From positions 184,513 to 248,512 of the forward strand of contig NZ_WWNE01000018.1 of NCBI RefSeq assembly GCF_009909615.1: DNA of 64,000 nt, read 5' to 3'. This DNA is from Acidiluteibacter ferrifornacis (GTDB lineage Bacteria; Bacteroidota; Bacteroidia; Flavobacteriales_E; Vicingaceae). Below the pieces are notes generated by a model. It saw only the letters and a list, made by a program, of their open reading frames with translations, was not told where the DNA came from and ran no database searches. Made by a program: the position numbers and the translations under genes. Below, one piece after another: positions 1-53,463 of this stretch; the stretch's first letter is position 1, and every line of letters begins with the position of its first letter.

Positions 1-120
1 GCCATGTAAGATTTGTTGGGCGTAGATAAAAATAGTAATAATAAACCTTTATGAGACATTAAATAATGATGAAAAAACAACACCTGTATATCCCCAATGA
101 ATTTTACATTATGTTAGGGC
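1..120 (-). other. attC-like site of cassette A2 (partial, runs off the window)
   Basis: Read on the minus strand, the core GCCCTAAC (120 to 113) is followed after three bases by the arm ATGTAAAATT (109 to 100). About 86 bases later comes the near-complement AATCTTACAT (13 to 4). The core-to-arm spacing matches that of the complete sites at 784-917 and 51409-51543, although the arm sequence differs. The closing GTTRRRY core would lie beyond position 1. A further GCCCAAC-like core is visible on the minus strand at 21 to 15. Confidence 0.5.
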
Positions 121-161
121 AAGTTTTGTTTTAAATCTTGTGTCTTGTAATTATTTAAAAA

Positions 162-584
162 TTGAATATTAAAATGGGTCTAATAATAGTGAATCAAGAT
201 TTGTCAATATACAATGACAATGAGAAAATGTTTAGGTTAATTGAATGGGATAAAGATGGCGAGCTTTGTTCTATGTCGGAAGAAATGAAATTATTAATTG
301 ACAAATTTTCAAAAAAAGGTATTGAAATAGGTATTTCCTTAAAATATGAAAGAGATGAAATTCTTGATTTAATTTTAACTCCTAAATTAGAAGAAAGCGC
401 AATAATAGATAATTGTCTTCATTTTTCTGAACATTCAGAAAGTATTAATGAATTAATTGATGATTTTTTCAATAAATCTAGTTTACAAATACAATCTTTA
501 CTATCCGATAAAGATAATTTATTATTAAACGAAAAAGATAGTTTAAGAATCACTGTCAAGAAGTCCAACGACTCCACGAACTGA
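162..584 (+). CDS. Hypothetical acidic protein in cassette A2
   Basis: A small acidic protein of about 136-140 residues that I do not recognise. It has no signal peptide, membrane segment or clear motif, and it is rich in Asp, Glu, Ser and Asn. The longest frame starts at a TTG; an in-frame ATG at 174 is the likelier start. It lies inside cassette A2 on the strand opposite to the other cassette genes and overlaps the 3' end of the convergent minus-strand gene by 42 bp. An antisense-oriented cassette gene can carry its own promoter, but none is obvious here. Very AT-rich. Confidence 0.55.
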   Translation: MNIKMGLIIVNQDLSIYNDNEKMFRLIEWDKDGELCSMSEEMKLLIDKFSKKGIEIGISLKYERDEILDLILTPKLEESAIIDNCLHFSEHSESINELIDDFFNKSSLQIQSLLSDKDNLLLNEKDSLRITVKKSNDSTN

Positions 585-770
585 TAACTCATAAATAAAC
601 GATTTAATGTTTTGAATGTTACCTATTAGAGTTATTGAGTTATTATTATTTTTATAGCATTTAACATATTTATGGCGACTTTTCACTTTAGAAACTTTAT
701 CAAATACATTAACAGTATTCGTATTTGGTATGAGTTTGTATGTTTCAGTATATATAGTGTAATCTTCCAT
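543..770 (-). CDS. Small hypothetical cassette protein
   Basis: A 75-residue protein starting at the ATG at 770, which reads MEDYTIYTETYK. The frame is open further upstream to 824, but that stretch lies in the attC-like site, so the shorter start is preferred. The ATG is 21 nt inside the cassette opening end, a typical position for a cassette gene. The composition is mixed, with a Lys/Asn-rich middle (residues about 27-44), and no family is recognised. Its 3' end overlaps the convergent plus-strand gene. Function unknown. Confidence 0.55.
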   Translation of the reverse strand: MEDYTIYTETYKLIPNTNTVNVFDKVSKVKSRHKYVKCYKNNNNSITLIGNIQNIKSFIYELSVRGVVGLLDSDS

Positions 771-783
771 AGTTTTACAATTT

Positions 784-917
784 GCCCTAACGTCTGGGCT
801 ATGAGTAGTTGCGTGGGTTAGCACTCAACTTTGCAAGTACACACCAAACTGAAAATCCGCGAGGATTTTCAGAAGTAGGCGAGAACAAGCAATTACTTAT
901 AGCCATTGTTGGCGTGT
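784..917 (-). other. attC-like recombination site between cassettes A1 and A2
   Basis: The 134-bp site lies between core GCCCTAAC (784-791) and core GTTGGCGTG (908-916). Inner arms GGCTATGAGTAGTTGC (797-812) and GCAATTACTTATAGCC (889-904) are complementary at 14 of 16 positions. Between them is a perfect 10-bp hairpin, CTGAAAATCC/GGATTTTCAG (849-858/863-872) with loop GCGA. The layout of outer cores, inner arms and a central structured spacer is that of an integron attC site. Almost the same sequence recurs at 51409-51543. Confidence 0.75.
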
Positions 918-1665
918 CGTTATTTTTTTTCATATTCAGTTATTATTGGCATATGGTCGCTGGCACTCAACCAATTTTCAGCAGTTCCAACTTCCAATTT
1001 TGTCAATGTGTTTTCAAATTCTGATGAGCCAAAAACATAATCAATATGGTATGCTCTTTCAAGTTTTCTTTGAAAATATAGAGTTGGTTTACTTTCCTTT
1101 CCTTGTTTTTCTCCTGTAACTTTATGGTAAAAACTTTCAATACCAATTTCTTTAAGTTCATTCACGACATCAGAATGATTCCACCATCTATCCCATTCGT
1201 CCCATATTGTATTACTATTGAAATCTCCAATTAATAGAATGTTTTTCATTTTATTACGATTAACTTGAAGATATTTCCAAAATTGTCCCATATATCCAAA
1301 ATTCGGTGAATTGTTTCTGTGAGTCCAAACAGCTAATAAGTTAAATTCGTTGTTAATTTCGCACGGTAAAAAATGTTTCACTCTATGGTCTTTAAATTCG
1401 TTCGACCAATTCAACTTTTTTAATGTTATTTCTGGTTTAGCGAATATCGCAAGTCCTTTATTTTTAGTGTCTCCGTTCCAAATATAGTTTTTCGCCCAAT
1501 TTTGATATTCTTTGTGTTTTGATTCGGTTGGGTTTTCACATTCTTGGATTACATAAATATCAGCATTCAGTTCCGCAATTTGGTCGAACTTTTTTCTAAA
1601 TGCTCCATTACAATTCCAAGTTACTATTCTCAATTTCCAACAGTTTTTTTCTAATGCACGCCAAC
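908..1665 (-). mobile_element. Integron-like gene cassette A1
   Basis: On the minus strand it opens with GTTGGCGTGC (1665 to 1656) and closes with ACACGCCAAC (917 to 908); nine bases of the two ends are exact complements. The single gene fills the unit: its stop codon is three bases before the closing sequence. This is the first cassette after the head hairpin next to the integrase. Confidence 0.7.
920..1633 (-). CDS. Endonuclease/exonuclease/phosphatase (EEP) family protein
   Basis: A 237-residue EEP-superfamily protein (exonuclease III/DNase I-like fold). Visible family motifs are TWNCNG at residues 5-10, the metal-binding Glu31 in IQECE, GDFNS at 136-140 and SDHMP at 225-229 with the catalytic Asp-His pair. 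All key residues are present, so it is probably an active Mg-dependent hydrolase; DNA, RNA or phosphoester substrate cannot be told from sequence. There is no signal peptide. The start is a TTG at 1633, because the homology begins at MRIVTWN. It is the sole gene of cassette A1 and could serve in nucleic-acid defence or repair, which is inference. Confidence 0.85.
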   Translation of the reverse strand: MRIVTWNCNGAFRKKFDQIAELNADIYVIQECENPTESKHKEYQNWAKNYIWNGDTKNKGLAIFAKPEITLKKLNWSNEFKDHRVKHFLPCEINNEFNLLAVWTHRNNSPNFGYMGQFWKYLQVNRNKMKNILLIGDFNSNTIWDEWDRWWNHSDVVNELKEIGIESFYHKVTGEKQGKESKPTLYFQRKLERAYHIDYVFGSSEFENTLTKLEVGTAENWLSASDHMPIITEYEKK

Positions 1666-1699
1666 AAGTGGATATGACGCACTCTGTGCGTCATATCCA
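1656..1699 (-). other. attI-like head site of locus A (perfect hairpin plus core)
   Basis: TGGATATGACGCAC (1669-1682) and GTGCGTCATATCCA (1686-1699) form a perfect 14-bp stem with loop TCT. It lies five bases past the integrase stop and is followed, in cassette orientation, by ACTTG and the GTTGGCG core of cassette A1. An almost identical hairpin heads locus B at 53230-53260. It lacks a following T-run, which argues against a simple terminator. A role as the integration platform (attI equivalent) is inferred. Confidence 0.6.
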
Positions 1700-1703
1700 T
1701 ATT

Positions 1704-2852
1704 TTAAATTTGGCCTAAATTAATTAATTCAATTGGACTTTTTATTTTATGAATATGATTTGTAGCAATATGGGTGTATATTTCTGTAGTTTGACTCGAA
1801 TTGTGCCCCAGCAATACTTGTATTGATCGTAAATCAGTTCCATTTTCTAATAAATGGGTCGCAAATGAATGACGCAATGTATGAGCACTTATGTTTTTTC
1901 GAATACCAGCTATAGATGCCGCTCTTTTTATTAACTTATTGATACTTGATCCGGTATACGGTAAGCCCGTAGGACCCTCAAATAGATACTTCTTAGGTCG
2001 ATACCTTTTGTAATAAGTCCGTAAATCACTTAGTAGTCGTTCACTCAATAACGAAACTCGGTCTTTGTTACCCTTTGATTGCTTTATAGTTATCAATAGA
2101 CGCTTACTATCAATGTCTTCTAACCGCAGGTTAATTAATTCGCTCCTTCTTAATCCGGCTGAATAAAGTAAACTGATGATGCACCTGTGCTTAATGTTTC
2201 CTGTTGCCCAAATTAAGTTCTCCACCTCTTTTAAAGCCAATACAGTAGGGAGTTTGTGCTCTTTGTTGGGTCGATTGATCGAATAAAACCGATTAGGCAT
2301 GCCCATAACCACCTCGTAGTAGAATTTTATAGAATTGATAATCAGATTGAGGGAACTTTTGGATGCTCCTTGCCGTTGCTTCATTAAAAGGTATTCATGT
2401 ATCTCCTTTTCAGAGAGTTTATTGTAGTCGATTTCAAAATGATTGATAAAATTTTCAAAATGATAGATGTATGATTTTGCAGTAGCAAATGAATACATTT
2501 TTAATTCAAGTGTATCATAAAACGCTATGGGACAATATTTCACTCCAAACCGTTTCGGCCGATTCTTAAAGTCTGATAGAGTGATCATTTCATCGTTAAA
2601 CCCTGTTGCATTCCCGAAGAAATGCTTGCCATTAACCCAAGCTACACCTCTAAATGTATTGAATATGAGGTCTATGTTTGCTTCAGTGTTCAAAATGTAC
2701 GCCATTCCAAATTGATTGCTCCACCTCACATTTGGTAACCCTTTTACCAACGCATTTAGCACTTTATTGGGATAAAATTGTAAACCAATTTGCTTCTCAT
2801 TCTTGATAAACAAGTGTTTTAAGGTTATTTTATATAGAACAGAAGGATTCAT
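1704..2852 (-). CDS. Tyrosine recombinase/integrase of the cassette locus
   Basis: A 382-residue tyrosine recombinase. The N-terminal ~110 residues are a lineage-specific region (residues 11-80 contain KHLFIKNEKQIGLQFYPNK). A SAM-like core-binding domain follows at about 112-190 and a catalytic domain at 200-375. Catalytic residues are Arg235 (GLRRSEL), Lys259 or Lys263, His324 and Arg327 (HTLRHSF), His350 (LLGH) and Tyr359 (IYTH). The C-terminus IKSPIELI resembles ends seen in IntI and related enzymes. I see no IntI-type extra segment between motif II and the HxxR box, so it is closer to Xer enzymes. It points toward the cassettes, as in reverse-oriented integrons. It is distinct from the housekeeping XerD at 59933. 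Confidence 0.92.
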   Translation of the reverse strand: MNPSVLYKITLKHLFIKNEKQIGLQFYPNKVLNALVKGLPNVRWSNQFGMAYILNTEANIDLIFNTFRGVAWVNGKHFFGNATGFNDEMITLSDFKNRPKRFGVKYCPIAFYDTLELKMYSFATAKSYIYHFENFINHFEIDYNKLSEKEIHEYLLMKQRQGASKSSLNLIINSIKFYYEVVMGMPNRFYSINRPNKEHKLPTVLALKEVENLIWATGNIKHRCIISLLYSAGLRRSELINLRLEDIDSKRLLITIKQSKGNKDRVSLLSERLLSDLRTYYKRYRPKKYLFEGPTGLPYTGSSINKLIKRAASIAGIRKNISAHTLRHSFATHLLENGTDLRSIQVLLGHNSSQTTEIYTHIATNHIHKIKSPIELINLGQI

Positions 2853-2890
2853 TTGACATAATTCGTAATAATATAAACAATCAGCAGTCT

Positions 2891-2921
2891 AATAGTCGCT
2901 TAATAGACGACTATTAAGCGA
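2891..2921. promoter_or_regulatory. Overlapping alternative hairpins between integrase and zinc-finger gene
   Basis: In the 90-bp divergent intergenic region, AATAGTCG (2891-2898) pairs with CGACTATT (2908-2915). TCGCTTAATAG (2896-2906) pairs with CTATTAAGCGA (2911-2921). The two stems share bases and exclude each other. This could be an operator shared by the two divergent genes or a second recombination site; the structure is seen, the role is not. Confidence 0.5.
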
Positions 2922-2942
2922 TTAAATATTTATCTTTATCTG

Positions 2943-3320
2943 ATGGATTCCATTCAGTCGTGCCCCATTTGTAGCAACCCAATAGTTGGGAGAACAGATA
3001 AAATATACTGCTCCTTAGAATGTAAGCGAGCTTCCGATTATGAAAAAAGAAAAGTCGAAGAAAAACTCTTTATCAGCATTGATCGCCAGTTAAAAACCAA
3101 TCGTAAAATCTTAAAAAAGTACAATCGAGTAGGTAAAACCACATTGCGGAAAGAAGAATTAATCAAGGAAGGTTTTAATCCAAACTACTTCACCCATTAC
3201 TGGAAAAACAGTAATGGAGACATTTATTTGTTTGTATACGATTATGGTTTTTTAGCACTGAAAGAAAATTTAAAAGACAAATACCTCATCGTTCAGTGGC
3301 AAGCATATATGAGTAAATAA
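2943..3320 (+). CDS. Zinc-ribbon protein divergent from the integrase
   Basis: A 125-residue protein with an N-terminal Cys4 zinc-binding knuckle: CPIC at residues 7-10 and CSLEC at 23-27. A basic helical stretch follows at about 30-60, then a C-terminal aromatic-rich segment (FNPNYFTHYWKN at about 78-89). No catalytic motif is seen. From memory, close relatives sit beside this integrase type in other flavobacteria, so it may be a partner or regulator of the recombinase; that link is inference. It starts 90 bp from the integrase start across a hairpin-rich divergent region. Confidence 0.7.
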   Translation: MDSIQSCPICSNPIVGRTDKIYCSLECKRASDYEKRKVEEKLFISIDRQLKTNRKILKKYNRVGKTTLRKEELIKEGFNPNYFTHYWKNSNGDIYLFVYDYGFLALKENLKDKYLIVQWQAYMSK

Positions 3321-3325
3321 ATCAA

Positions 3326-4795
3326 TTATAAGTCAAACAATAAGCCGCCAAAGTGTGCATTGGCTGTTTCAGAGTGGGTAATCCAAACCAATTCATTCTC
3401 GTCGCACTTCCGCACGTATGCATTGATCAATACTTGAATGTCTTGGTCGTCGTAGCCATAATTGATATAATCCAACGCTTCCTCAACAGAAGTAATCACG
3501 GCATCTTTAGGAGCCTCACCATATCCTTTATATCTTCCCTTTTGTAGCAATACAATGCTGTTTACTTCATCGTTACGTCCTTTTCCCCTTATGATAAATG
3601 AATTATTCTCTTTGTCCGTTTCTAGTATCGCCTTTTCAAACCGTTGGTTATAATCCGTTACACTTTCTTCTTCTACACATGCTCCTTTGCACTCATCCAC
3701 TTCGTAACTGTAACAGCTAGTATGCTGCGGAGTTTGAAGGCTGCATAACTTTGGGCACAATTCGAACTGAGCACATAAAACTTCCAAATACTTCCGTGAT
3801 TCATATGCAGATCTAAAACTGATCAATGGGCGGTCGTGTTTGCCCGTTCTCCCCAACGTAAAGCGGCCATATCCATTCTGATCAATATAAGAATACAAAC
3901 CATAATTAAGGGTTACTTTCTTCATCGAACGATTATAAATCGGCCAGTGTTTTTTGATGGCATGAGCTTCAGTTAGCATCATAATCAGTTCATTGCTGCA
4001 AATTTCAACAGACACGTCGTGAATATTTTCAGCAAAATTATTTTTACTCTTGGTATTCGTATTTCCTGAAAAGTGAGCATGCACTCGCTTTTTTAAATCT
4101 ATTGCTTTACCTACATAAATTACTTTGCCTTTCTGATTATAAAATGAATAAACGCCCATTTCATTGGGGATAGATTCAAACTTTTCTTTATCCAAATGGG
4201 GGGGAAGTATGGCTTCTTTTGATCTTGGATTCAAAGATTCTTTGATAAAGCCTTTGGTGTCCTTTTCAACCAACAAATGCAGTAGTAAAGCGGTGGCATC
4301 GGCATCTCCCAAGGCTCGGTGCCTGTCTGTCAATGGAATACCTAGTTGGCCGCAAATCTTGCCTAAGCTATATGACGGAAAGCCAGGAATAATTTTTCGG
4401 CTCAAACGAACGGTGCAGAGTTTTTTACGCTGAAAACGTTCACCTGCTCTGTTGTATGATTCTCGAATAAATCCGTAATCAAAATTCACATTGTGCGCTA
4501 CAAAAATAGCTCCTTGAGTAAAGGATTCTATCTGAGGAATAATTTCGTGAAACAAGGGAGCATTAGCCACCATTTCATTCGTAATCCCAGTTAAATGGGT
4601 AATGTTTGGCGGAATGAGTTGCTCTGGATTAACTAAAGTTGAGAATCGATCAATTATTTGCTCCCCGTCGGTTAATACGATAGCAATTTCTGTAATTCGC
4701 CCGTGTGCAATACTGCCTCCCGTAGTTTCTATATCCGTTACGGCATATATCGCATGAGTAGGCTTCATTTTTTGTTTGTCAAAGGAGATCATCAA
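3326..4795 (-). CDS. DnaQ-like 3'-5' exonuclease with GIY-YIG nuclease domain
   Basis: A 489-residue two-domain nuclease. The N-terminal half is a DEDDh exonuclease of the DNA polymerase III epsilon type: DIETTGG (ExoI, about residues 21-27), HNVNFDYGF (ExoII) and HRALGDADAT (ExoIII). A GIY-YIG domain follows, with GVYSFYNQKG and VIYVGKAIDLKKRVHAHF, as in UvrC and Cho. A Cys-containing region near residues 350-375 follows. The architecture is that of the Bacteroidota DnaQ-Cho fusion presumed to act in excision repair. A likelier start is the ATG at 4792 or the one at residue 11. It overlaps the upstream pterin dehydratase gene by 17 bp, indicating co-transcription. Confidence 0.9.
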   Translation of the reverse strand: MMISFDKQKMKPTHAIYAVTDIETTGGSIAHGRITEIAIVLTDGEQIIDRFSTLVNPEQLIPPNITHLTGITNEMVANAPLFHEIIPQIESFTQGAIFVAHNVNFDYGFIRESYNRAGERFQRKKLCTVRLSRKIIPGFPSYSLGKICGQLGIPLTDRHRALGDADATALLLHLLVEKDTKGFIKESLNPRSKEAILPPHLDKEKFESIPNEMGVYSFYNQKGKVIYVGKAIDLKKRVHAHFSGNTNTKSKNNFAENIHDVSVEICSNELIMMLTEAHAIKKHWPIYNRSMKKVTLNYGLYSYIDQNGYGRFTLGRTGKHDRPLISFRSAYESRKYLEVLCAQFELCPKLCSLQTPQHTSCYSYEVDECKGACVEEESVTDYNQRFEKAILETDKENNSFIIRGKGRNDEVNSIVLLQKGRYKGYGEAPKDAVITSVEEALDYINYGYDDQDIQVLINAYVRKCDENELVWITHSETANAHFGGLLFDL

Positions 4796-5012
4796 TATTT
4801 TGAGCCATTTCGCGATCTTTCGCAGTTATCGTATTGCCTTCATCATGGGTGGTGAGCGTTATGTTCACTTGGTTGTAAATATTGCTCCACTCAGGGTGAT
4901 GATTTAGCTTTTCAGCAATTATCGCCACCTTGGACATAAACGCCCAGGCTTCGATAAAGTTTTTAAATTCAAATGTTCTCTTTAGAGAATTGTTTTCTTC
5001 TTTCCAGCTCAT
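4779..5012 (-). CDS. 4a-hydroxytetrahydrobiopterin dehydratase (pterin-4a-carbinolamine dehydratase)
   Basis: A protein of about 77 residues, the usual size for a PCD/DCoH enzyme, which recycles the pterin cofactor of aromatic amino-acid hydroxylases. The signature EKLNHHPEWSNIYNQV carries the catalytic HHP, and THDEGNTITAKD matches the C-terminal family block. The ATG at 5012 (MSWKEE) is preferred; the frame opens at a TTG at 5033. It sits between the lipoate ligase and the DnaQ-GIY-YIG gene on the same strand, overlapping the latter. Confidence 0.92.
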   Translation of the reverse strand: MSWKEENNSLKRTFEFKNFIEAWAFMSKVAIIAEKLNHHPEWSNIYNQVNITLTTHDEGNTITAKDREMAQNIDDLL

Positions 5013-5045
5013 AAATTCTACTTTTCCACTCAAGTTAATAAAAAC

Positions 5046-6026
5046 TTAAAACATTGATGCCAATAAATCTTCTTTAGAAACATTGTTAAAATAGGATTTT
5101 AAATCAAGCTCATCTAGTTTAGCCTCAATGGCTTTTTTGTCGTGAGCGCAGCCTACCAATGCATTTTCTACCGCGTCAATATCGTTGATATGGAAAAAAT
5201 CTCCTTCTATTTTCGCAGCTTGTATTATGCCTTTTTTTACGTCAAGATTCATTTCAATAACGCCTCCTGTTGTTTTTACTCCTTGCTTAAAGTTATAGTT
5301 TGGAGAATGTCCAAAATTCCATTCCCAAGTAGCGTATTTTTCATCTCTCAATTTTTGAATGGCTGCAATATCTTCTGGAGTGAACTCATAAAGCTTCGCA
5401 TCTTCAAAAGTGCTAAGGATATGATCCATAATTTTATCCGTAAAGGCATCCAAACTAAGCGGTTCTTTCAAATGCTCGGTTATGTTCGTAACTCTTTTAG
5501 GAATCGATTTGATGGCTCTGTCTTTGTATTTCAATGGACTCACTTTTAATCCTCCACTTACATTTTTCATTTCTGAAGAAAACAATAGCGTGCCATGATG
5601 CAAAACTTTATTTTTAAATACGTGTTCTGCATTTCCTGAAAATTTTCGACCATCAATAGTTAAGTCATTTCTTCCTTCAAATTTGGCATCAACTCCTAAT
5701 TTTTGCAACACTTCTATAATGGGCAAAGTATATCGCCTAAAATCTACCAAATTGGATTCTTCTCCCGTTCTGGTAAACGAAAAATTCAGGTTACCCAAAT
5801 CGTGATAAACAGCCCCACCACCGGAAAGTCGTCTAACCACTTTTATACCTTGTTTTTCAACATAGTCGGTATTTATTTCGGCTAAAGTGTTTTGATGTTT
5901 TCCTACGATAATGGCATTGTCGTTTCTCCAAAGCATAAAGCAATCTTCTTGAATATTTTTGAAGATATATTCATCGGTGGCAATATTGAAATAAGGATCA
6001 GTAGATTGGTGTTTGATACAAAGCAT
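5046..6026 (-). CDS. lplA: Lipoate--protein ligase A
   Basis: About 326 residues from the ATG at 6026 (MLCIKHQS); the frame is open 14 codons further but without homology. It activates free lipoate with ATP and attaches it to lipoyl domains of 2-oxoacid dehydrogenases and GcvH. The family motifs RRLSGGGAVYHDLGNLNFSF, the lysine-bearing GRKFSGNAEHVF and the HHGTLLFS block are present. A C-terminal accessory domain of about 90 residues is included, so it is the full bacterial LplA rather than a stand-alone catalytic unit. A glycine-cleavage T gene lies elsewhere in the window (35222). Confidence 0.93.
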   Translation of the reverse strand: MLCIKHQSTDPYFNIATDEYIFKNIQEDCFMLWRNDNAIIVGKHQNTLAEINTDYVEKQGIKVVRRLSGGGAVYHDLGNLNFSFTRTGEESNLVDFRRYTLPIIEVLQKLGVDAKFEGRNDLTIDGRKFSGNAEHVFKNKVLHHGTLLFSSEMKNVSGGLKVSPLKYKDRAIKSIPKRVTNITEHLKEPLSLDAFTDKIMDHILSTFEDAKLYEFTPEDIAAIQKLRDEKYATWEWNFGHSPNYNFKQGVKTTGGVIEMNLDVKKGIIQAAKIEGDFFHINDIDAVENALVGCAHDKKAIEAKLDELDLKSYFNNVSKEDLLASMF

Positions 6027-6272
6027 AACTTCTTTTTTTGTAAGGCTACAAAGGTAAACAAGGCTCAATGGAATTCAATTATTCCTTACAACAAATTGTA
6101 AAGTATATCAGTTCACTCTGAGACCATATAAAATGGGATTAGTTCTTTAGTTAGGGTAGGAGGCGGTCTCAGTTTCCATGTATTTCCCTATGAATATATT
6201 CCTCTAAGAGTTTCAAATTAGAAAGTTTTAATAACACACTTTTGGTGATGTACAGAATTGTTTAAAATGAAG

Positions 6273-6305
6273 CAAAAAAATAGGCTGCTCAATAGAACAG
6301 CCTAT
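6273..6305 (-). terminator. Rho-independent terminator
   Basis: ATAGGCTG (6280-6287) pairs with CAGCCTAT (6298-6305). Read on the minus strand the stem is followed by a run of seven T. It lies just downstream of the 38-residue membrane ORF at 6328. Confidence 0.8.
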
Positions 6306-6327
6306 CATAATCTTATATGATGTTGTA

Positions 6328-6444
6328 TTAAAGGTGAAAAACAACCTTAAGAATCACCACTAATACTATGACTAATCCAGTAAAAAAAATAACAGGACCA
6401 AACCCTTTTTTTATGGACTTTTGATTTTTTACTTCAGTATTCAT
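6328..6444 (-). CDS. Small single-span membrane protein (38 residues)
   Basis: A short frame starting MNTEVKNQKSIKKGFGP, then a hydrophobic stretch from VIFFTGL to VILKVVF that can span the membrane, ending in HL and a TAA. A Lys-rich N-terminus before the span suggests N-in topology. A convincing terminator follows 23 bp downstream. Function unknown; the terminator and the clean topology argue that it is a real gene. Confidence 0.5.
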   Translation of the reverse strand: MNTEVKNQKSIKKGFGPVIFFTGLVIVLVVILKVVFHL

Positions 6445-6527
6445 TTGAAATTGAATTAAATTAATAACACTTTTAAAAAGATGGTTAGTATTAGTGTACC
6501 AACCAATTGCAAGAAAATGAAGTATTA

Positions 6528-6872
6528 CTAATTTCTAAAGCATTGCACCCATATTGATAAGGATACTTTGCCATTCAAAAACTGATTAAAACAATAGTTG
6601 GGTAACAATTGAGGGTTCAATTGTTTGGTATATCGGTAAAAGCTAATAAAAGAGGTATTGTTTTTAATTACCTCCCAGCTGCGTTGCAATAATTGATGCA
6701 GAGAATTTCCCTCTAACTGCTGCTCGGCAGGTGTCATTTGAAAAAGTGCACTTTTTACAATGGAAGTCGGAAGTTGGTCATGGTAGTCTTGTTTCAACGA
6801 AGCTGGTGAAAACAAAATGGCCACGAAGAATAAGAATATTCCCAGACCGAAAGAAAGGTGCTCTTTTTTCAT
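6528..6872 (-). CDS. Hypothetical exported or anchored protein
   Basis: About 114 residues from the ATG at 6872 (MKKEHLSFG). The N-terminus is a signal-anchor (FGLGIFLFFVAILFSPA, about residues 8-24), so the rest probably lies outside the cytoplasm. The remainder has no recognised domain; it contains a Leu/Gln-rich segment (LEGNSLHQLLQRSW) and two Cys near the end. No operon partner is adjacent. Function unknown. Confidence 0.55.
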   Translation of the reverse strand: MKKEHLSFGLGIFLFFVAILFSPASLKQDYHDQLPTSIVKSALFQMTPAEQQLEGNSLHQLLQRSWEVIKNNTSFISFYRYTKQLNPQLLPNYCFNQFLNGKVSLSIWVQCFRN

Positions 6873-6988
6873 GAAGCACAAAGTTAGTTCATTCTTTGTT
6901 TGTCAATCAATTATTAATTAAAAATTGGTTGTTAAAAAGTTCAAAATGATTTTACACAATCGATACTTTCTAAAGTGTTATTTATGCG

Positions 6989-6996
6989 TACTTTTG
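6989..6996 (+). promoter_or_regulatory. Bacteroidota -7 box of ppa
   Basis: TACTTTTG fits the TAnnTTTG consensus and lies 43 bp before the ppa ATG. The upstream -33 element is not clear. Confidence 0.5.
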
Positions 6997-7038
6997 CCAC
7001 CCCAAAAAAATAGAGAAAACAGATTTAAGATAAATAAT

Positions 7039-7575
7039 ATGAAAAATCCATGGCATGATATTATACCTGGAGACGACGTTCCTAACGTTGTAAATGCATG
7101 TATTGAAATATCAAAGGGAAGTAAGGGAAAGTTTGAATTGCACAAAGAAAGTGGCTTGATTATGTTGGACCGAGTATTATTCTCGTCCGTACATTATCCA
7201 GCCAATTATGGTTTTATTCCACAGACGTACTGTGAAGACAATGATCCATTAGACATTTTAGTAATTACTTCAATAGAAGTTCCACCATTGTGTTTGCTTA
7301 ATGCAAAAGTGGTAGGTGTAATGCGAATGATAGATAATGGCGAGGCGGATGATAAAATTATTGCCGTTGCTGCCAATGATATGAGTGTGAACCACGTCAA
7401 TGATATCTCAGAATTGCCTCCTCACAACTTAAAAGAGATCAAACGTTTCTTTGAAGATTATAAAAAGTTGGAAAACAAAGAGGTGAAAGTTGATGATTTC
7501 TTGGGAAAGGAGAAAGCTTTTGAGATCATTAATGAAAGTATAGAATTATACAAAAAAACTTTTCTAAACAATTAA
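7039..7575 (+). CDS. ppa: Inorganic pyrophosphatase
   Basis: About 178 residues from the ATG at 7039 ([13 protein letters not shown]), the normal length for a family I soluble pyrophosphatase that hydrolyses PPi to phosphate. The frame opens further upstream but that part has no homology. The family signature [10 protein letters not shown], with its metal-binding aspartates, is intact. [21 protein letters not shown] and [16 protein letters not shown] are also typical. The stop TAA overlaps the ATG of the next gene by one base, so the two are probably translated together. Confidence 0.95.
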
Positions 7576-7937
7576 TGAAGCTCATTCTTGTTTATAACGC
7601 TAATTCAGATTTCTTTAGCAGCTCGTTGGATTTTATACATAAAATTGTCAGTCCGAAAACTTATAAATGCGAACTGTGTGCATTGACACATGGAAGTTTT
7701 AAAGAAAAACCGGAATGGAAAAATTTTGTAGATCAAACAGCTATCAAATTAGTGTTTCATCACATTGGAGACTTCGAAGAACGTTACCGCACTTCTTACG
7801 ACTACCCCGTGGTAGTAATGGAAGACGACGATCAGTTGAAGGTTGTTTTTAACAAAACACAGCTAGGGCAAATGAAGTCAACAAACGAGTTGATTCATGC
7901 CATTGAATCTTTAGCAGAGGTTTCTACAAAAAATTAA
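7575..7937 (+). CDS. Conserved hypothetical protein downstream of ppa
   Basis: A 120-residue soluble protein starting [16 protein letters not shown]. It contains an LCALTHGSF segment with a conserved Cys (a second Cys three residues earlier) and an acidic DYPVVVMEDDDQLKVV patch. The alternation of strands and helices suggests a small thioredoxin-like or alpha/beta fold, but no catalytic CxxC is present (the motif is CELC). From memory, similar proteins occur across Bacteroidota; no function is established. Coupled to ppa by a TAATG overlap. Confidence 0.7.
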   Translation: MKLILVYNANSDFFSSSLDFIHKIVSPKTYKCELCALTHGSFKEKPEWKNFVDQTAIKLVFHHIGDFEERYRTSYDYPVVVMEDDDQLKVVFNKTQLGQMKSTNELIHAIESLAEVSTKN

Positions 7938-8155
7938 TTGGAACTGACACTATCTAACTGCAGTTGGGTAGTGTCGGCTTCTTCTTCTACACCTTTACAC
8001 TTAGCCAATTCAGCGCTAACATTCAGTAACTGGGCTTCAGTGGCGGTTAGCTCTAATTTTAAAGCTTCCACAGTAGGGTCTTTTTCTTGTTTAGCCGCAC
8101 AACTCATTAATAATAAGGCAAAAACAGCAATAGGGAAGTGAAAATATTTTTTCAT
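7934..8155 (-). CDS. Small lipoprotein
   Basis: A 73-residue protein with a signal peptide (MKKYFHFPIAVFALLLMS) ending in a lipobox LLMSC, Cys19 being the likely lipidated residue. The mature part is a single predicted coiled coil (VEALKLELTATEAQLLNVS) with an acidic tail. It converges with the preceding gene, overlapping by 4 bp, and lies 12 bp downstream of the patatin-like gene on the same strand, so the two may be co-transcribed. Function unknown. Confidence 0.75.
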   Translation of the reverse strand: MKKYFHFPIAVFALLLMSCAAKQEKDPTVEALKLELTATEAQLLNVSAELAKCKGVEEEADTTQLQLDSVSSN

Positions 8156-8167
8156 GGTTATGGTCGG

Positions 8168-10420
8168 TTATTTTATCAAATCTAATACTTTATTAACAGC
8201 TTTTTTATTTTCTTCTAAATAGATGGCTTGCATTACTTTTTCTCGCTCGCTCTCAGTTAAATGCCAACTTAAAGAGATGCTTTTTTCTTCGTCTGAATTC
8301 AACACAAAGTCAACTAATTGAATTTTATTACCAGTCCAACCATTGGCGTATTCTACCAATGATGAATTGTTGTAATCTTGGATATTGAACAAATTGCCAT
8401 AAACACTGCCAAAAGGAGCAGTGAGGTCTTGGTAGATAGAGGTGTTATTATCTTTGGTGGGCAGTTTGGCCTGCTGCTTACCATAACGAACTTGTATGAT
8501 TACGACACCTGAGGTGTTTTTTTGAATCCAATCTCTAAAACTGTAAAGGTAACGGATACTTGTTTTTACGCCATAATTGTCTCTTAAGCCTGCGTCAATC
8601 AACTCTATCTTTGGTTCAGTTGGAAGTTCAATCGTGGGCATGATATATGGGAAAGTAGCACTCATTCTCAAAGCACTTAAAAATCGAATATTCAATGGTT
8701 GATGACCTTTCAGAAGTCGGCTATATTCTACATTTTCACCCAACTCAACGGTTTGGTTTTCAACGGCCGATTCATTTTGGCACATAAACCCCAATGGATG
8801 ATTAGCTGTCAATAATATTTTTCCATCATTGATAATAGAAGGGGACAGGATCATCATAGGAAGTTCAGAATTAAACTCTTTTAACTGATAGGCTCCTAGT
8901 GGCTTATCCATAAAGTATCGAGTATTTCGATTTAATCGTTGCTCGAATGCATAACCTCTATCTTTCCAATATTGCTGACCATCATACTCGAATTTTTGCA
9001 AACGAATGAAATAGTCATTTACGGCTAAACTAAAAACTATTGGATTTAAAATGTCCTTGCCTAAATCGTAGATGTATTTCGGATGATGAAGGTTGATTTT
9101 TTTTCCTTCTTGTTTGAGGTTTAACAATTCTCTAAAGTAAGCTGCTCCTATCATTCCTCCGGATGAACCTGTTATCAAGTGCATGTGTTTACTGCTTTCT
9201 CCTTCGCTGATGCTATCTAAGTATTGAACAACTCTAAATGCCCACATGGACGCGCGAGAACCTCCTCCACTTACATTGAATAAGACTAGTTTGGGTTTTC
9301 CTGTTCGTTGTTTATTTTTCTTGGCCCATTGATCCAAAATTTGAATGTGATAGAGGGAGTCTTGCGTAATGGTGTCCGGAGAAATTATTCCTAAATTATA
9401 ATCCACTGATTCGGTCTCATAATCCAATCCATAAGCTTTATTGGCATAGGTAAATTCTTCGAATTTAGATAAATAATTGACTAAGATGAAAAGCCCAATA
9501 AAGGCAACAAACGTCCAACCATAAAGCCAAGATCGAATGGCAGAAGTAAGCATGATTAAGATGGTAAAAAGCAGTAAAATGCTCGCTCCAGCAGGAATAA
9601 CAAAAACATCTACTTCTCTAAATAAACCCAAAACAAAAATGGAAATGAGCACTACAATTTCGAAAATTGAAGCATTGAAATTATTTTGTTTAAATACTTG
9701 ATTCAATTGAGATTTGTTATAGTGAGAAAAATCTCTTGCCAATCTAATTTTTAAGGGCTTAATCAAATAAGATTCTACATGCCAGGCTTTATTGTTGAAG
9801 GTCTCATTGAACCAAGTTTTATGCTTTTTATGGGATGCTAATCGGTAAATGCCTTCATCATCCTCCGCCTGATCGCCTACTGTTCCAAAAAGCTTTAAAT
9901 AGTCTTTATTGGTGTTGATGAAATAGGACATTGAGATTAAAATCACAATGATGTATCCTATCAGAAAACCAACGACATCGTAAAGTATTTGGATTTTATT
10001 AAACTGTAGATCCTCCATTTTAAAATCTACAACAGAGTAGCAATAGTAGATCAAGAAGGTGAGCGGTATAAACGAATTGTTGATACAGTATTTTAAAAAG
10101 GGCCGTGATTGAGTCGCTAGAAATGGAAACCTAAAGCCGTTGTTTACATAGCTAGAGATATTGTAAGCCATCACAAATCCACCAAAAGAAAAGCCCAAAA
10201 TGAGGTAGCTCATAAAATTGACTTTCCCAAGATATTCTGGGTCTAGGAGTAAAAATGGAATACCATATTTATGCCCAAAATTTCCGGAGATGGTGAGAAA
10301 AAGGATAATCCAAAAGATGAGAAGTTGTTGTGATTTTTTTAAATGCACGAAAACCAACTGTAGCGGGAAAAAATAAATGATTCGTGAGAACCATTTTTGA
10401 AGGTTGCTTGGTTGATTCAT
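8168..10420 (-). CDS. Patatin-like phospholipase membrane protein
   Basis: A 750-residue protein. The N-terminal ~330 residues hold several membrane spans in two clusters. The C-terminal half is a patatin-like acyl hydrolase domain: oxyanion-hole NVSGGGSRASMW (about residue 383), nucleophile elbow GSSGG (Ser in LITGSSGGMIGAAYF) and catalytic Asp in LIDAGLRDNYG. The Ser-Asp dyad is complete, so it is probably an active membrane-anchored lipase or phospholipase. The long membrane portion is not usual for small secreted patatins. It is followed at 12 bp by a small lipoprotein gene on the same strand. Confidence 0.85.
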   Translation of the reverse strand: MNQPSNLQKWFSRIIYFFPLQLVFVHLKKSQQLLIFWIILFLTISGNFGHKYGIPFLLLDPEYLGKVNFMSYLILGFSFGGFVMAYNISSYVNNGFRFPFLATQSRPFLKYCINNSFIPLTFLIYYCYSVVDFKMEDLQFNKIQILYDVVGFLIGYIIVILISMSYFINTNKDYLKLFGTVGDQAEDDEGIYRLASHKKHKTWFNETFNNKAWHVESYLIKPLKIRLARDFSHYNKSQLNQVFKQNNFNASIFEIVVLISIFVLGLFREVDVFVIPAGASILLLFTILIMLTSAIRSWLYGWTFVAFIGLFILVNYLSKFEEFTYANKAYGLDYETESVDYNLGIISPDTITQDSLYHIQILDQWAKKNKQRTGKPKLVLFNVSGGGSRASMWAFRVVQYLDSISEGESSKHMHLITGSSGGMIGAAYFRELLNLKQEGKKINLHHPKYIYDLGKDILNPIVFSLAVNDYFIRLQKFEYDGQQYWKDRGYAFEQRLNRNTRYFMDKPLGAYQLKEFNSELPMMILSPSIINDGKILLTANHPLGFMCQNESAVENQTVELGENVEYSRLLKGHQPLNIRFLSALRMSATFPYIMPTIELPTEPKIELIDAGLRDNYGVKTSIRYLYSFRDWIQKNTSGVVIIQVRYGKQQAKLPTKDNNTSIYQDLTAPFGSVYGNLFNIQDYNNSSLVEYANGWTGNKIQLVDFVLNSDEEKSISLSWHLTESEREKVMQAIYLEENKKAVNKVLDLIK

Positions 10421-50389: not shown

Positions 50390-51417
50390 GTTAGGCACTT
50401 TATTTTTTTTCTTTTTTTCTGATTGCTCGTAAATTAGTTATTAAATCATCTCCTTTGGGGGTTAATTTCCAATATGTATTATTGTCTTTTAGGGATCTTT
50501 TTTTAATACTTTTTTCAATTAAACCTAACGCTTTTAATTGTATTAAGATAGACCGAAAATTATCTATAATAATTCTTACTCCTATTGGCTTACGACTCGC
50601 TTCTTTTGAAAGCAAGTGATATAGGTAATCACTAATTTGAGTTTGATAATCTTCTTCAGGAGCTTCGTCGATTAATATAGTTGCTGTTTTCGAGAATATT
50701 TCATTCCAAGTTAATTTTAAGCTGTCTCTATATAGTTCGCCATATTCAGTTTTCTTATAAGTGTATTGAACATTATATGTATCGTCTCCTTGAGATAAAG
50801 AATCAGTATCTGTAATAGCACTGGTCTTTAACTCATCTTCTAACTCTTTAATTTTTTCTTTTAATTTCAATATTTCGACGTTAGCTGCTGTCGAGCTGAT
50901 TCTATCAGCTTTGACCCAACCTGTTCTTGGTTTAGTTTTTATCAATTTTACAAGACTTCTACTAACTACCGAGCCTAACTCCTCAGGAGTTTGCCAAAAT
51001 TTAATATGCTTTTTAGATGCTAATTCTCTAAAAGTTAAAAGTTGTTTTGCTTTTTCTTCGTTTTTATCTGTTTTGGAAACGGATATGTCATCTACTGATT
51101 TTATTAAAAAGGAAATAATTGGAATACCAATTTTTAAAGCATATTCATATTCCATTTGTGTGTAACTGATACCTTCTGAGTTTAGAGAACCATATCTTCC
51201 ACCGATTATTAAAATATAGTAGTCTGATTCGTCAATAAGTTCTTTAATGAGTGTCCATTGGTCATCATCTGTAGCCGGAAAGAGTTCCATTCCAACAGGT
51301 ATGCAATCTAACTCTAAAAGAGCCTGAATTACTTCTTTCCTTTCATTTTTTAAATCTTGATAAGTTGAACTAACGAATACCTGATATTTTTTCATTGATT
51401 AAGATATTGTGCCTAAC
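50390..51417 (-). mobile_element. Integron-like gene cassette B2
   Basis: On the minus strand it opens with GTTAGGCAC (51417 to 51409) and closes with the exact complement GTGCCTAAC (50398 to 50390), then the IS110 element begins. One gene (DUF4062) fills it; the stop codon is about two bases before the closing core. The attC site that should follow is missing, apparently replaced by the IS. Confidence 0.65.
50400..51395 (-). CDS. DUF4062 domain protein (TIR-like N-terminus)
   Basis: A 331-residue protein. Residues 3-90 form a DUF4062 domain (KYQVFVSSTYQDLKNERKEV, GGRYGSLNSEGISYTQMEY), a TIR-related fold found in bacterial antiphage proteins. A coiled coil follows at about 165-190 (VEILKLKEKIKELEDELK). 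The C-terminal ~100 residues resemble a winged-helix-like region ending in a Lys/Arg-rich tail. Possible defence effector; whether the NADase or other activity exists is not shown. It is the only gene of cassette B2. Confidence 0.8.
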   Translation of the reverse strand: MKKYQVFVSSTYQDLKNERKEVIQALLELDCIPVGMELFPATDDDQWTLIKELIDESDYYILIIGGRYGSLNSEGISYTQMEYEYALKIGIPIISFLIKSVDDISVSKTDKNEEKAKQLLTFRELASKKHIKFWQTPEELGSVVSRSLVKLIKTKPRTGWVKADRISSTAANVEILKLKEKIKELEDELKTSAITDTDSLSQGDDTYNVQYTYKKTEYGELYRDSLKLTWNEIFSKTATILIDEAPEEDYQTQISDYLYHLLSKEASRKPIGVRIIIDNFRSILIQLKALGLIEKSIKKRSLKDNNTYWKLTPKGDDLITNLRAIRKKEKK

Positions 51418-51543
51418 GGTCTCGGCTATGAGTAGTTGCGTGGTTTATCACTTAACTTTGCAAGTACACACCAAACTGAAAATCCGCGAGGATTTTCAGA
51501 AGTAGGCGAGAACAAGCAATTACTTATAGCCATTGTTGTATGC
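51409..51543 (-). other. attC-like recombination site between cassettes B1 and B2
   Basis: A 135-bp site between cores GTGCCTAAC (51409-51417) and GTTGTATGC (51535-51543). The inner arms GGCTATGAGTAGTTGC (51424-51439) and GCAATTACTTATAGCC (51516-51531) are identical to those of the locus A site, as is the central CTGAAAATCC/GGATTTTCAG hairpin (51476-51485/51490-51499). Only a few positions differ over the whole site. Homogeneous sites of this kind are typical of chromosomal integrons. Confidence 0.78.
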
Positions 51544-52602
51544 AGTTTTTATTGATTCTATTATCATTTTACTCAATCTGTTTTGTTGCTGAGCATTAGA
51601 AGGAAAATCTTTACTAGTTAATTCAAGATTTTCTTTTTCTAAATAGTTTTTAAAGCTTGTGAAACATTTTTTAAAATGATTATATGTCAAGTCATTATGT
51701 TTATCTCCTAAATCATACATTGCATTGAAAGAATTTAAAATAGCAACATAGCCAGTTGTTTTCCATAAAATATTCTCCAAAGGTGATTCCCAATATTCAG
51801 GAAATGTATCTCTTAAAGAATTAAATACGTTTAAAAATATCTTTAAAATTACACTGTCTTCATTATTTAAAAAATATGTCCTCAATGGAAGTGAAGGAAC
51901 TTGAGGAAGTTCTTCATTTCTTTTTGATAATCTATAGTCCAAATCAGGATCTTTAGTTAACAAGAATATTAGATGCTTTACAAAAGTACCTTGAGATAAA
52001 GTTGCTAAATCTTGACTTTCTTCCTTTTTACCTAACATTTTCAATCTATTGTAAAAAGGTGATTCAGTATTTTTATTTAAAGCACGTGCAATTTCGTGTG
52101 CAGTCTTTTGAGGACTTCTATGTTTTGATAAAGCAAACAAATCATATATAAGACTCATACTAACCTTTGTTTGCTTACTATTAATAATAGAAAAAACATA
52201 AGCTTTTTCTTCTTCTGTTAAGTTGAACATAAGAATTATAGGAAGTTCAAACCTATCTTTAAAATCAGATTTTAAAATTCCTTTTAATCTATGTTGACCA
52301 TCAATAACTTCCCCAATTTTTTTATTATTATTCAAGGGTATCTCGAAGTTATTGTTGTTTAGCGTAATATTAGCATCTTCATAAACGCTAATGATTATTG
52401 GTGTTGGAAAAGTAGCATCAGGGTCAGAACAATATTTTGCTATTTCATTAATTCTTTGACTTGATTCATCTCTCTGAATTGCACTAGGACTAGCAGACCT
52501 AGGTGTGACGTGTACTAATTGTCCTAAATCAGTAGCTTTCATTTTACTAAAATAGAAGCTCCCAATAGGTTGATTTATTTCTATGTAAGGTGCTACTATC
52601 AT
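51520..52602 (-). CDS. DGQHR-domain protein
   Basis: A 360-residue protein with the diagnostic DGQHRLKGI (residues 101-109) of the DGQHR/DndB-like family, linked to DNA phosphorothioation (Dnd) and related defence systems. The N-terminal half (residues 1-140) matches the family; the C-terminal half is helical with no motif. The stop codon TAA lies inside the attC-like arm, so the last residues (YNNGYK) are encoded by the recombination site. It overlaps the upstream membrane protein gene by four bases (ATGA). Confidence 0.8.
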   Translation of the reverse strand: MIVAPYIEINQPIGSFYFSKMKATDLGQLVHVTPRSASPSAIQRDESSQRINEIAKYCSDPDATFPTPIIISVYEDANITLNNNNFEIPLNNNKKIGEVIDGQHRLKGILKSDFKDRFELPIILMFNLTEEEKAYVFSIINSKQTKVSMSLIYDLFALSKHRSPQKTAHEIARALNKNTESPFYNRLKMLGKKEESQDLATLSQGTFVKHLIFLLTKDPDLDYRLSKRNEELPQVPSLPLRTYFLNNEDSVILKIFLNVFNSLRDTFPEYWESPLENILWKTTGYVAILNSFNAMYDLGDKHNDLTYNHFKKCFTSFKNYLEKENLELTSKDFPSNAQQQNRLSKMIIESIKTAYNNGYK

Positions 52603-53226
52603 ATTTTATTTCCTTTAGAATCGGTTTTTAAATCTTCTGTTTTGTTGTTCATTTCGTCAACTTTTGCATCATCTTTTGAAGCAAAATTGTCATCTAACTC
52701 TTTATATTTATCATAATTATTTTCCAATCTTATTACACTAAAGGAATAAACAGAAATAATTATTGAAAGTAATAAGAATGTTAATTGCCACCAATCGATA
52801 TTGTAAGTAAGATTCTTTAATTTCTCAATATTTATGTCATTAGGTGAACTAGAATAAAAAACACCAGCAAAAAATAATGTAAAGATTGAAACAATAATTG
52901 TTAGAATTTTAATGGATTTAAATTTTGTTGGATGATTTTCGATTAGGTTAACAAATAAAGGACCTAAAACAGAAGCAAGTAAAGCTATTGAATAAGTATA
53001 GAAACTTCCATTTATACTATCTAGAAATAAAGATTGTGAGAAGCTTAAATTTCCGTTAATTACTCTAATAATAAAATTTGAGATAACTCCAATTTGTCCT
53101 GCTAGTATTGTGAATAAAAACCAGGTAAAAAAAATAAGCTTATTTTCACTTATTACTTCAAATGGTTTGGTTGATAATTGCCAAATGTTTTTCATTATTT
53201 TTTTTGTTTCTCAAATTGCATACAAC
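51535..53226 (-). mobile_element. Integron-like gene cassette B1 (two genes)
   Basis: On the minus strand it opens with GTTGTATGC (53226 to 53218) and closes with the exact complement GCATACAAC (51543 to 51535). It carries two overlapping genes, a membrane protein and a DGQHR protein, both transcribed toward the attC-like site. Two-gene cassettes are uncommon in integrons but known. Confidence 0.65.
52599..53195 (-). CDS. Four-span membrane protein in cassette B1
   Basis: A 198-residue protein with four hydrophobic spans (about 21-43, 68-90, 97-118 and 134-155) and a charged cytoplasmic tail (KYKELDDNFASKDDAKVDEM to the end). No family recognised. It is translated ahead of, and overlaps by ATGA, the DGQHR protein gene, so the two products may act together at the membrane; this is inferred from the coupling. 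Confidence 0.65.
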   Translation of the reverse strand: MKNIWQLSTKPFEVISENKLIFFTWFLFTILAGQIGVISNFIIRVINGNLSFSQSLFLDSINGSFYTYSIALLASVLGPLFVNLIENHPTKFKSIKILTIIVSIFTLFFAGVFYSSSPNDINIEKLKNLTYNIDWWQLTFLLLSIIISVYSFSVIRLENNYDKYKELDDNFASKDDAKVDEMNNKTEDLKTDSKGNKI

Positions 53227-53260
53227 AAGTGCATATGACGCACTTTGTGCGTCATATGCA
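53218..53260 (-). other. attI-like head site of locus B
   Basis: TGCATATGACGCAC (53230-53243) and GTGCGTCATATGCA (53247-53260) form a perfect 14-bp stem with loop TTT. It is followed in cassette orientation by CTTG and the core GTTGTATGC. Only a few bases differ from the hairpin at 1669-1699, and the flanking TTTAAAATATG is shared. No integrase gene is adjacent here. Confidence 0.6.
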
Positions 53261-53276
53261 TATTTTAAAATGTTAA

Positions 53277-53463
53277 TTTTTTATTTCAATAAAACTACTA
53301 ATTGATTTAAAATCAACTATAAAATCATTTATTAGTCGTTTGTTGTCGTTTAAAAACGGATAAATGGTAGTTTTCAATTCGTAGTTAGTTTTTTTACAAA
53401 CCCGAAGATAAGCCAAAAAGTCAAATGATTTTACAGTATGTTGAAAAGTAATGCATTAAAATA
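53277..53463 (-). pseudogene. Possible 3' gene fragment at the head of locus B
   Basis: On the minus strand an open frame ends ...ISSFIEIKN and a TAA at about 53277, just before the head hairpin of locus B. It lacks a good start (an in-frame stop lies about 60 codons upstream). It reads TVKSFDFLAYLRV near its beginning and matches nothing I know. It occupies the place where locus A has its integrase, so it may be a decayed or cassette-like gene; weak evidence. Confidence 0.3.

Follow-up and report, generated by a model that had tools for sequence, protein, structure and literature searches.

A probable chromosomal integron with an integrase lacking the I2 insertion in Acidiluteibacter ferrifornacis

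To judge by its layout and logic, the left end of the stretch of DNA analysed here (the window, 64,000 nt; C14:184513-248512 of a 3.5-Mb, 99.9% complete Bacteroidota genome) very probably belongs to a sedentary chromosomal integron whose integrase lacks I2 and is sister to IntI. Comparisons made at the sequence level demonstrate that the cassettes are units bounded by G^TT, that they are exchanged at the head, that one of them has passed between families, and that I2 and the extrahelical bases of attC are both absent. The layout is known, and the enzyme and its substrate are new.

Layout of the locus and its cassettes

The sequence-only reading had described a recombinase, a head hairpin and a string of units separated by structured sites at 1-3320, and the recombinase, the hairpin, a structured site and the start of a second cassette were found there. 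With the recombinase read from left to right, the order is stop codon, hairpin, CTT, GTT, cassette 1, attC, cassette 2, and then DNA beyond the window edge.

1..790, minus: cassette 2, starting with GTTAGGGCAA; own R'' TTGCCCTAAC, 10-bp perfect complement
122-113: R'' of the cassette 2 attC; an assembly gap at the window edge interrupts this site
162-584, plus, and 543-770, minus: overlapping ORFs of cassette 2
about 782..920, minus: attC-like site of cassette 1; R'' at 910, R' GTT at 791, two A/G mismatches 5 nt apart in the stem
791..1664, minus: cassette 1, starting with GTTGGCGTG; R'' of its own attC CACGCCAAC, 9-bp perfect complement
920-1633: gene of cassette 1, endonuclease/exonuclease/phosphatase (PF03372, E 4.8e-10)
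1663..1699, minus: attI-like head, a hairpin with 14-bp arms (1669-1699) plus CTT and GTT; z -6.4 against shuffles
1704..2852, minus: tyrosine recombinase (integrase), 382 aa; PF00589, E 4.5e-39; SAM-like core-binding domain
2613..2852, minus: extra N-terminal domain of the recombinase (residues 1-80), beta-beta-alpha-beta-beta-alpha in an AlphaFold2 model
2943..3320, plus: divergent neighbour gene, 125 aa, with a zinc-ribbon-like start (CPIC...CSLEC)

As had been read from the letters, the recombinase gene points into the array. A near-perfect hairpin directly follows its stop codon, and a structured attC-like site of roughly the expected 134 bp is present (z -2.9 on one strand and -3.9 on the other). 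The presence of an array was also correctly recognised, but 1-3320 covers only its first two or so cassettes. Likewise, the one- or two-gene units are real, but the two ORFs of cassette 2 overlap and lie on opposite strands, and the gene at 2943-3320 is no cassette. This gene stands beside about 35 related recombinases (32-70% identity) and, judged by sequence, is a conserved part of the platform; the small zinc-ribbon-like protein is possibly a regulator or accessory protein.

The home array comprises at least 13 cassettes and 13 attC-like sites and runs from window position 910 to -11,026 (locus L006), about 11 kb past the left window edge; it is an array of one- and two-gene cassettes between attC-type sites, as integrons have. 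Two of the 13 sites are cut by assembly gaps. Single-N scaffold joins lie inside the array at -0 and -7415 (L006 20000 and about 12585). A gene end is nearly repeated on the two sides, and the assembly may have lost or misjoined cassettes at these points. Arrays were detected by a stem together with the cassette's own start, because BLAST for near-identical sites finds them poorly: a search with the 141-bp site returned only 3 copies in the genome, and the copies of the cassette 1 site at window 51412 and C9:324676 are 95-96% identical. IntI arrays, used as positive control, were recovered by this detector. An Rfam scan gave no match.

The key test compared the start of each cassette, after the G^TT of the preceding site, with the R'' box in the site downstream of that same cassette. 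Complementarity between these two is expected only if cassettes were circular and cut at G^TT. A perfect complement of 9-10 bp was found in 10 of the 11 testable home-array cassettes, while the eleventh, which adjoins an assembly gap, has a run of 4. The mean was 9.0 bp for own pairs versus 3.9 bp for non-own pairs, and none of 200,000 permutations reached the observed sum. The cassette genes are mostly of unknown function; DUF4238, DUF6794, an exo/endonuclease and a HigBA toxin-antitoxin pair are among them. The HigBA cassette (PF05015, L006 9310-9904) is found close to the far end of the array, a likeness to Vibrio superintegrons.

An attI site beside the integrase, with cassette entry at G^TT, is a further integron feature, and the head at 1663-1699 has this position. 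Its insertion point is G^TT at 1665/1664, as deduced from platform identity that ends at GTT. The arms of the head hairpin vary in sequence with their pairing kept in about 20 relatives, and ATAAACAA-GTT is the form of the head in the more distant clade. The head pattern ending in GTT occurs at 13 places in the genome (C9, C14, C15, C18, C20) and nowhere in the controls. Behind twelve of these 13 heads lies a cassette whose start complements its own R'' over 8-10 bp, and one of the twelve is a solo head further along the window:

50390..51416, minus: next cassette, with a DUF4062 gene (50400-51395), own R'' GTGCCTAAC at 50398-50390 and a 9-bp complement
51417..53225, minus: cassette behind the solo head, with genes at 52599-53195 and 51520-52602 (DndB-like, PF14072) and attC at about 51407-51549
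53224..53260, minus: solo attI-like head with no recombinase beside it (exact pattern match C14:237736-237769), followed by a cassette with a 10-bp complement to its own R''
53261..53419, minus: unit upstream of solo heads, with promoter-like TTATCTTCGGG and an ORF of about 34 aa

About 190 bp containing the promoter-like box and the ORF of about 34 aa are common to 8 solo heads. Heads were also found in other genomes, four in G042, at least four in G012 and one in G338. The DndB-like and DUF4062 genes are possible phage-defence cargo.

The recombinase and the structure of its attC-like sites

All catalytic residues are present in the window recombinase (R235, K260/K263, H324, R327, H350, Y359). 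Across the family they are kept in 72 of 72 proteins (K263 in 70), and a C-terminal SP-x-[DE] motif is common to these recombinases and IntI. Among NCBI models, NF040815 ('XerA / integron integrase') gave 210 bits against a cut-off of 220, and TIGR02249 (integron integrase) matched in two stretches with 193 bits against a cut-off of 265; the scores for the XerC and XerD models were also below their cut-offs. In the alignment, the I2 insertion of IntI is absent, the spacing being 59 aa versus 101 in IntI. The distance from KxDR to HxLRH is 58-64 residues in 72/72 recombinases versus 101 in 13/13 IntI. By this spacing and the TIGR02249 score, the protein is not an IntI-family integrase with the additional (I2) domain, by which integrons are defined. 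The absence of an IntI-type insertion and the extra N-terminal region, about 105 aa long, had both been noticed in the first reading.

A tree of 89 proteins, with phage integrases left out, separated the recombinases and IntI from XerC/XerD (SH-aLRT 100). IntI formed one clade (SH-aLRT 100) inside or beside the I2-less group, with long branches whose order is easily over-read. Neither this separation nor the model scores place the recombinase with Xer proteins. It had been called Xer-type, which holds for its compact form without I2 but not for its position in the tree. The cassette-capture system that had been suspected is likewise there, but since the recombinase groups with IntI and away from Xer, it would be an I2-less sister of IntI rather than an independent invention from Xer. 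In a structure search with the full-length protein, the best match was XerA (4a8e, Z 24.9).

Most family members carry about 100 extra N-terminal residues. Since recombinase cores filled the full-length structure search, the N-terminal domain was modelled alone (AlphaFold2, pLDDT 78). Foldseek ranked the HARP domain of SMARCAL1 first (4o66), weakly at E 0.47, and comparison by VIA gave archaeal XPB damage-recognition domains at Z 5-5.6 (2fz4, XPB: Z 5.6, rmsd 1.8 over 56), with other folds scoring similarly (CASTOR1, Z 6.1). A Pfam search of the N-terminal domains returned nothing firm. The model thus appears weakly HARP- or XPB-DRD-like, which we take as a lead only. The array-associated recombinase of Chryseobacterium (L036, 278 aa) is without the domain, which therefore cannot be generally required.

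Extrahelical bases in the 5' arm are a textbook feature of attC sites in IntI arrays. We compared the sites of the I2-less arrays with canonical attC arrays that accompany IntI in genomes of the same phylum. The number of extra 5'-arm bases per site was 0.16 in the I2-less arrays versus 2.49 in the IntI arrays, and 55 of 63 sites were bulge-free versus 1 of 39 (p 6e-19). Sites within a genome are not independent; the test by locus, which addresses this in part, gave 24/28 versus 1/13 (p 3e-6), with a detector that favours ungapped stems in both sets. The extrahelical stem bases that belong to the definition of attC are thus lacking in the I2-less arrays. The absence of the I2 helix is thus matched by the absence of these bases, its ligand. 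One IntI-bearing locus (L202, G426) has two scored attC sites that are nearly bulge-free, the sole exception among the 13 IntI loci.

The I2-less sites contain 1.7 A/G differences per site versus 0.13 in IntI arrays, often exactly 5 nt apart. These correspond to A.C mismatches on the top strand and G.T wobbles on the bottom strand. The mismatch pair is frequent and not universal (29 of 63 sites, 14 of 28 loci). The bottom strand folded better than the top strand in 61/88 sites (p 4e-6). Canonical IntI attC sites of the contrast set showed no strand bias in folding stability, and the strand can therefore not be decided from folding energy alone.

Relatives, cassette exchange and alternative explanations

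Relatives of the recombinase, counted at E<=1e-60, are present in 26 of 46 genomes of the family and 135 of 396 of the class. Downstream of the recombinase 75 sites were detected in 322 kb (0.233 sites/kb), distributed over 29 of 54 loci across Bacteroidia families. Upstream there were 8 sites in 190 kb counted on both strands (0.021 per kb per strand), and shuffled downstream DNA had 0 sites in 644 kb. Arrays of different cassettes downstream of related recombinases, which had been proposed as a check, are thus a recurrent finding. The 134-bp site, for which a search of genomes had been proposed as well, is no universal marker, and attC sequences vary by genome. Sites distant from the recombinase are CALIN-like clusters or arrays behind dispersed heads of the same genome, and therefore the link between sites and recombinase, which would have failed had the two been unassociated everywhere, holds. 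For 25 of the 54 loci no site was detected downstream, which may reflect contig ends, the strict detector or the lack of an array; many recombinase genes stop at a contig end, as repeats would cause. Only a part of the relatives yielded long arrays in a search for downstream self-repeats. Single-contig genomes (L166, L168) have arrays, and so do isolates, namely Aquimarina agarilytica (L028, L030) and Chryseobacterium sp. Leaf394 (L036). In the latter, a six-cassette array (about 2575-8810) lies on the 5' side of the I2-less recombinase, in classical orientation.

Comparisons between genomes revealed exchange at the head. In G045 and G004 recombinase and head are identical over 1,714 bp (100%), and the identity ends exactly at the head GTT, with unrelated cassettes beyond. 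A second head of the window genome (C15), located after a C-terminal recombinase remnant, diverges from the first at the same GTT. Furthermore, an 832-bp cassette is 99.3% identical in G002, a genome of the window's genus (family f1), and G093 (family f5), and GTT bounds the identity on both sides. In both genomes it lies in an array, and the two recombinases, very unlike in sequence, are 53% and 34% identical to that of the window. Among the matches listed for a class-wide sample of 395 genomes, where G002 is absent, the cassette occurred only in G093. Cassettes are thus mobile between genomes as units, as in integrons. The system has the array, attI and mobility of the known integron family and lacks the enzyme and site structure that define it.

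CALINs are frequent, the window genome has sites remote from the recombinase, and the GTT/AAC core and R''/R' logic are as in classical attC. These facts would fit ordinary CALIN-type clusters that were moved in trans by a classical IntI from other cells, the recombinase being an unrelated neighbour. We consider this unlikely, since in many genomes the first cassette starts at a fixed short distance (33-99 nt) from the recombinase stop and platform identity stops at that GTT. Moreover, the extrahelical bases read by IntI are missing from the sites. No IntI exceeded the NCBI cut-off in the window genome or the 46 family genomes, and a phylum sample with IntI in 105 of 395 genomes had just one from this class among the matches listed.

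Could the sites be worked by another enzyme, or the repeats be of another kind? The genome encodes two other Xer-like recombinases (32-35% identity to that of the window), and a real integron might be served by host XerC/XerD with the local protein accessory or decayed. This is very improbable, as neither Xer gene has attC-like sites near it and the local family keeps all its catalytic residues and is kept, patchily but widely, with the head. Slightly less probable still is a phage- or element-type integrase that has the hairpin head as its own att site, with REP-like DNA or tandem insertions as downstream repeats. The head hairpin is palindromic with dif-like geometry, and mobile elements hold many tyrosine recombinases of Bacteroidia; however, the units are 0.8-1.7 kb blocks of one or two genes, mostly in one direction and each with a matched R''/start pair, and a cassette is shared singly between families. 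The viral contigs scanned contained only one relative (42% over the core). On plasmids a class 1 IntI was found at 26%, and one relative at 44% on a Persicobacter megaplasmid, with no sites detected. An integron operated by its own I2-less integrase remains the reading that we prefer, and on the sequence evidence we hold with high confidence that the local recombinase is the agent of the cassette reaction.

Proposed mechanism and comparison with known systems

In the proposed mechanism the recombinase would cut the attI-like heads and the folded attC-like sites at G^TT, insert circular cassettes at the head and also excise them. In the circular cassette the first bases would pair with the cassette's own R'' box. 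The folded bottom strand is probably the substrate. Because the I2 helix is absent, the enzyme would read the folded site differently: the A.C (top) or G.T (bottom) mismatches may serve in place of protruding bases, and the added N-terminal domain, weakly HARP/XPB-like, may read structure. That mismatches, the domain or both replace the contact between I2 and bases is a tentative idea, to which we give somewhat less than even weight. It is likely that the other heads are served in trans, so that one recombinase would supply a dozen dispersed attI-like heads. Taken as a whole, we lean slightly towards a sister integron lineage, widespread in Bacteroidia, that would perform single-strand recombination without I2 or extrahelical bases by reading A.C/G.T mismatches, with a HARP/XPB-like domain in many members and, in some genomes, one integrase feeding a dozen dispersed promoter-attI pads in trans.

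According to an earlier paper, cassette capture requires the I2 helix, which occurs only in integron integrases and probably made the use of single strands possible; the paper also states that direct proof of its causality is missing (PMC7790495). Bona fide cassettes in a sister lineage with neither I2 nor the bases read by I2 make this question directly testable, and such a lineage offers either the state before I2 or a second solution. There seems to be a second, undescribed mode of recognition on which integrons can run. In Bacteroidetes, an earlier survey had found only In0, and IntegronFinder 2 then found one complete integron, in Salinibacter ruber; complete integrons are also reported in Chlorobi and Ignavibacteriae (PMC9024848). 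That surveys requiring the IntI domain have recovered almost no complete integrons from Bacteroidetes may be due to I2-less integrases. Their arrays suggest that Bacteroidia hold many mobile genes that have so far gone unseen, and attI heads dispersed over a genome would represent a new layout in which cassettes are expressed. Our literature search, with preprints and most subscription journals outside it, found no description of I2-less integrons in Bacteroidia.

Among known systems, the Xer recombinases (XerA, XerC, XerD and XerH; 4a8e, 1a0p, 5hxy and 5jk0 among their structures) have the same compact catalytic core without I2, but XerC/XerD are apart in the tree, and Xer proteins have no such N-terminal domain and no cassettes. 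The HARP domain of SMARCAL1 and the archaeal XPB damage-recognition domain appear to share the topology of the extra N-terminal domain, but the match is weak and the host proteins are unrelated. In the reverse-oriented integrons of Spirochaetota (Treponema type) the recombinase likewise faces the cassettes, and this orientation is general for typical Spirochaetota IntIs (PMC9668308). Those integrases are counted as IntI by their additional domain, which archaeal IntIs also keep (PMC9668308), whereas the recombinase described here is without it.

The closest likeness is to sedentary chromosomal integrons such as the Vibrio superintegron (integrase IntI4, PDB 2a3v). Shared features are the attI-like head beside the recombinase, co-oriented attC cassettes, the inferred G^TT crossover, complementarity of R'' and the cassette's own start, a HigBA cassette, similar attC sites within the genome and CALIN-like clusters elsewhere. 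In contrast to these integrons, the integrase here has an additional N-terminal domain but no I2 helix, the attC arms have A.C/G.T mismatches in place of extrahelical bases, the array lies 3' of the recombinase, and there are many dispersed attI-like heads per genome.
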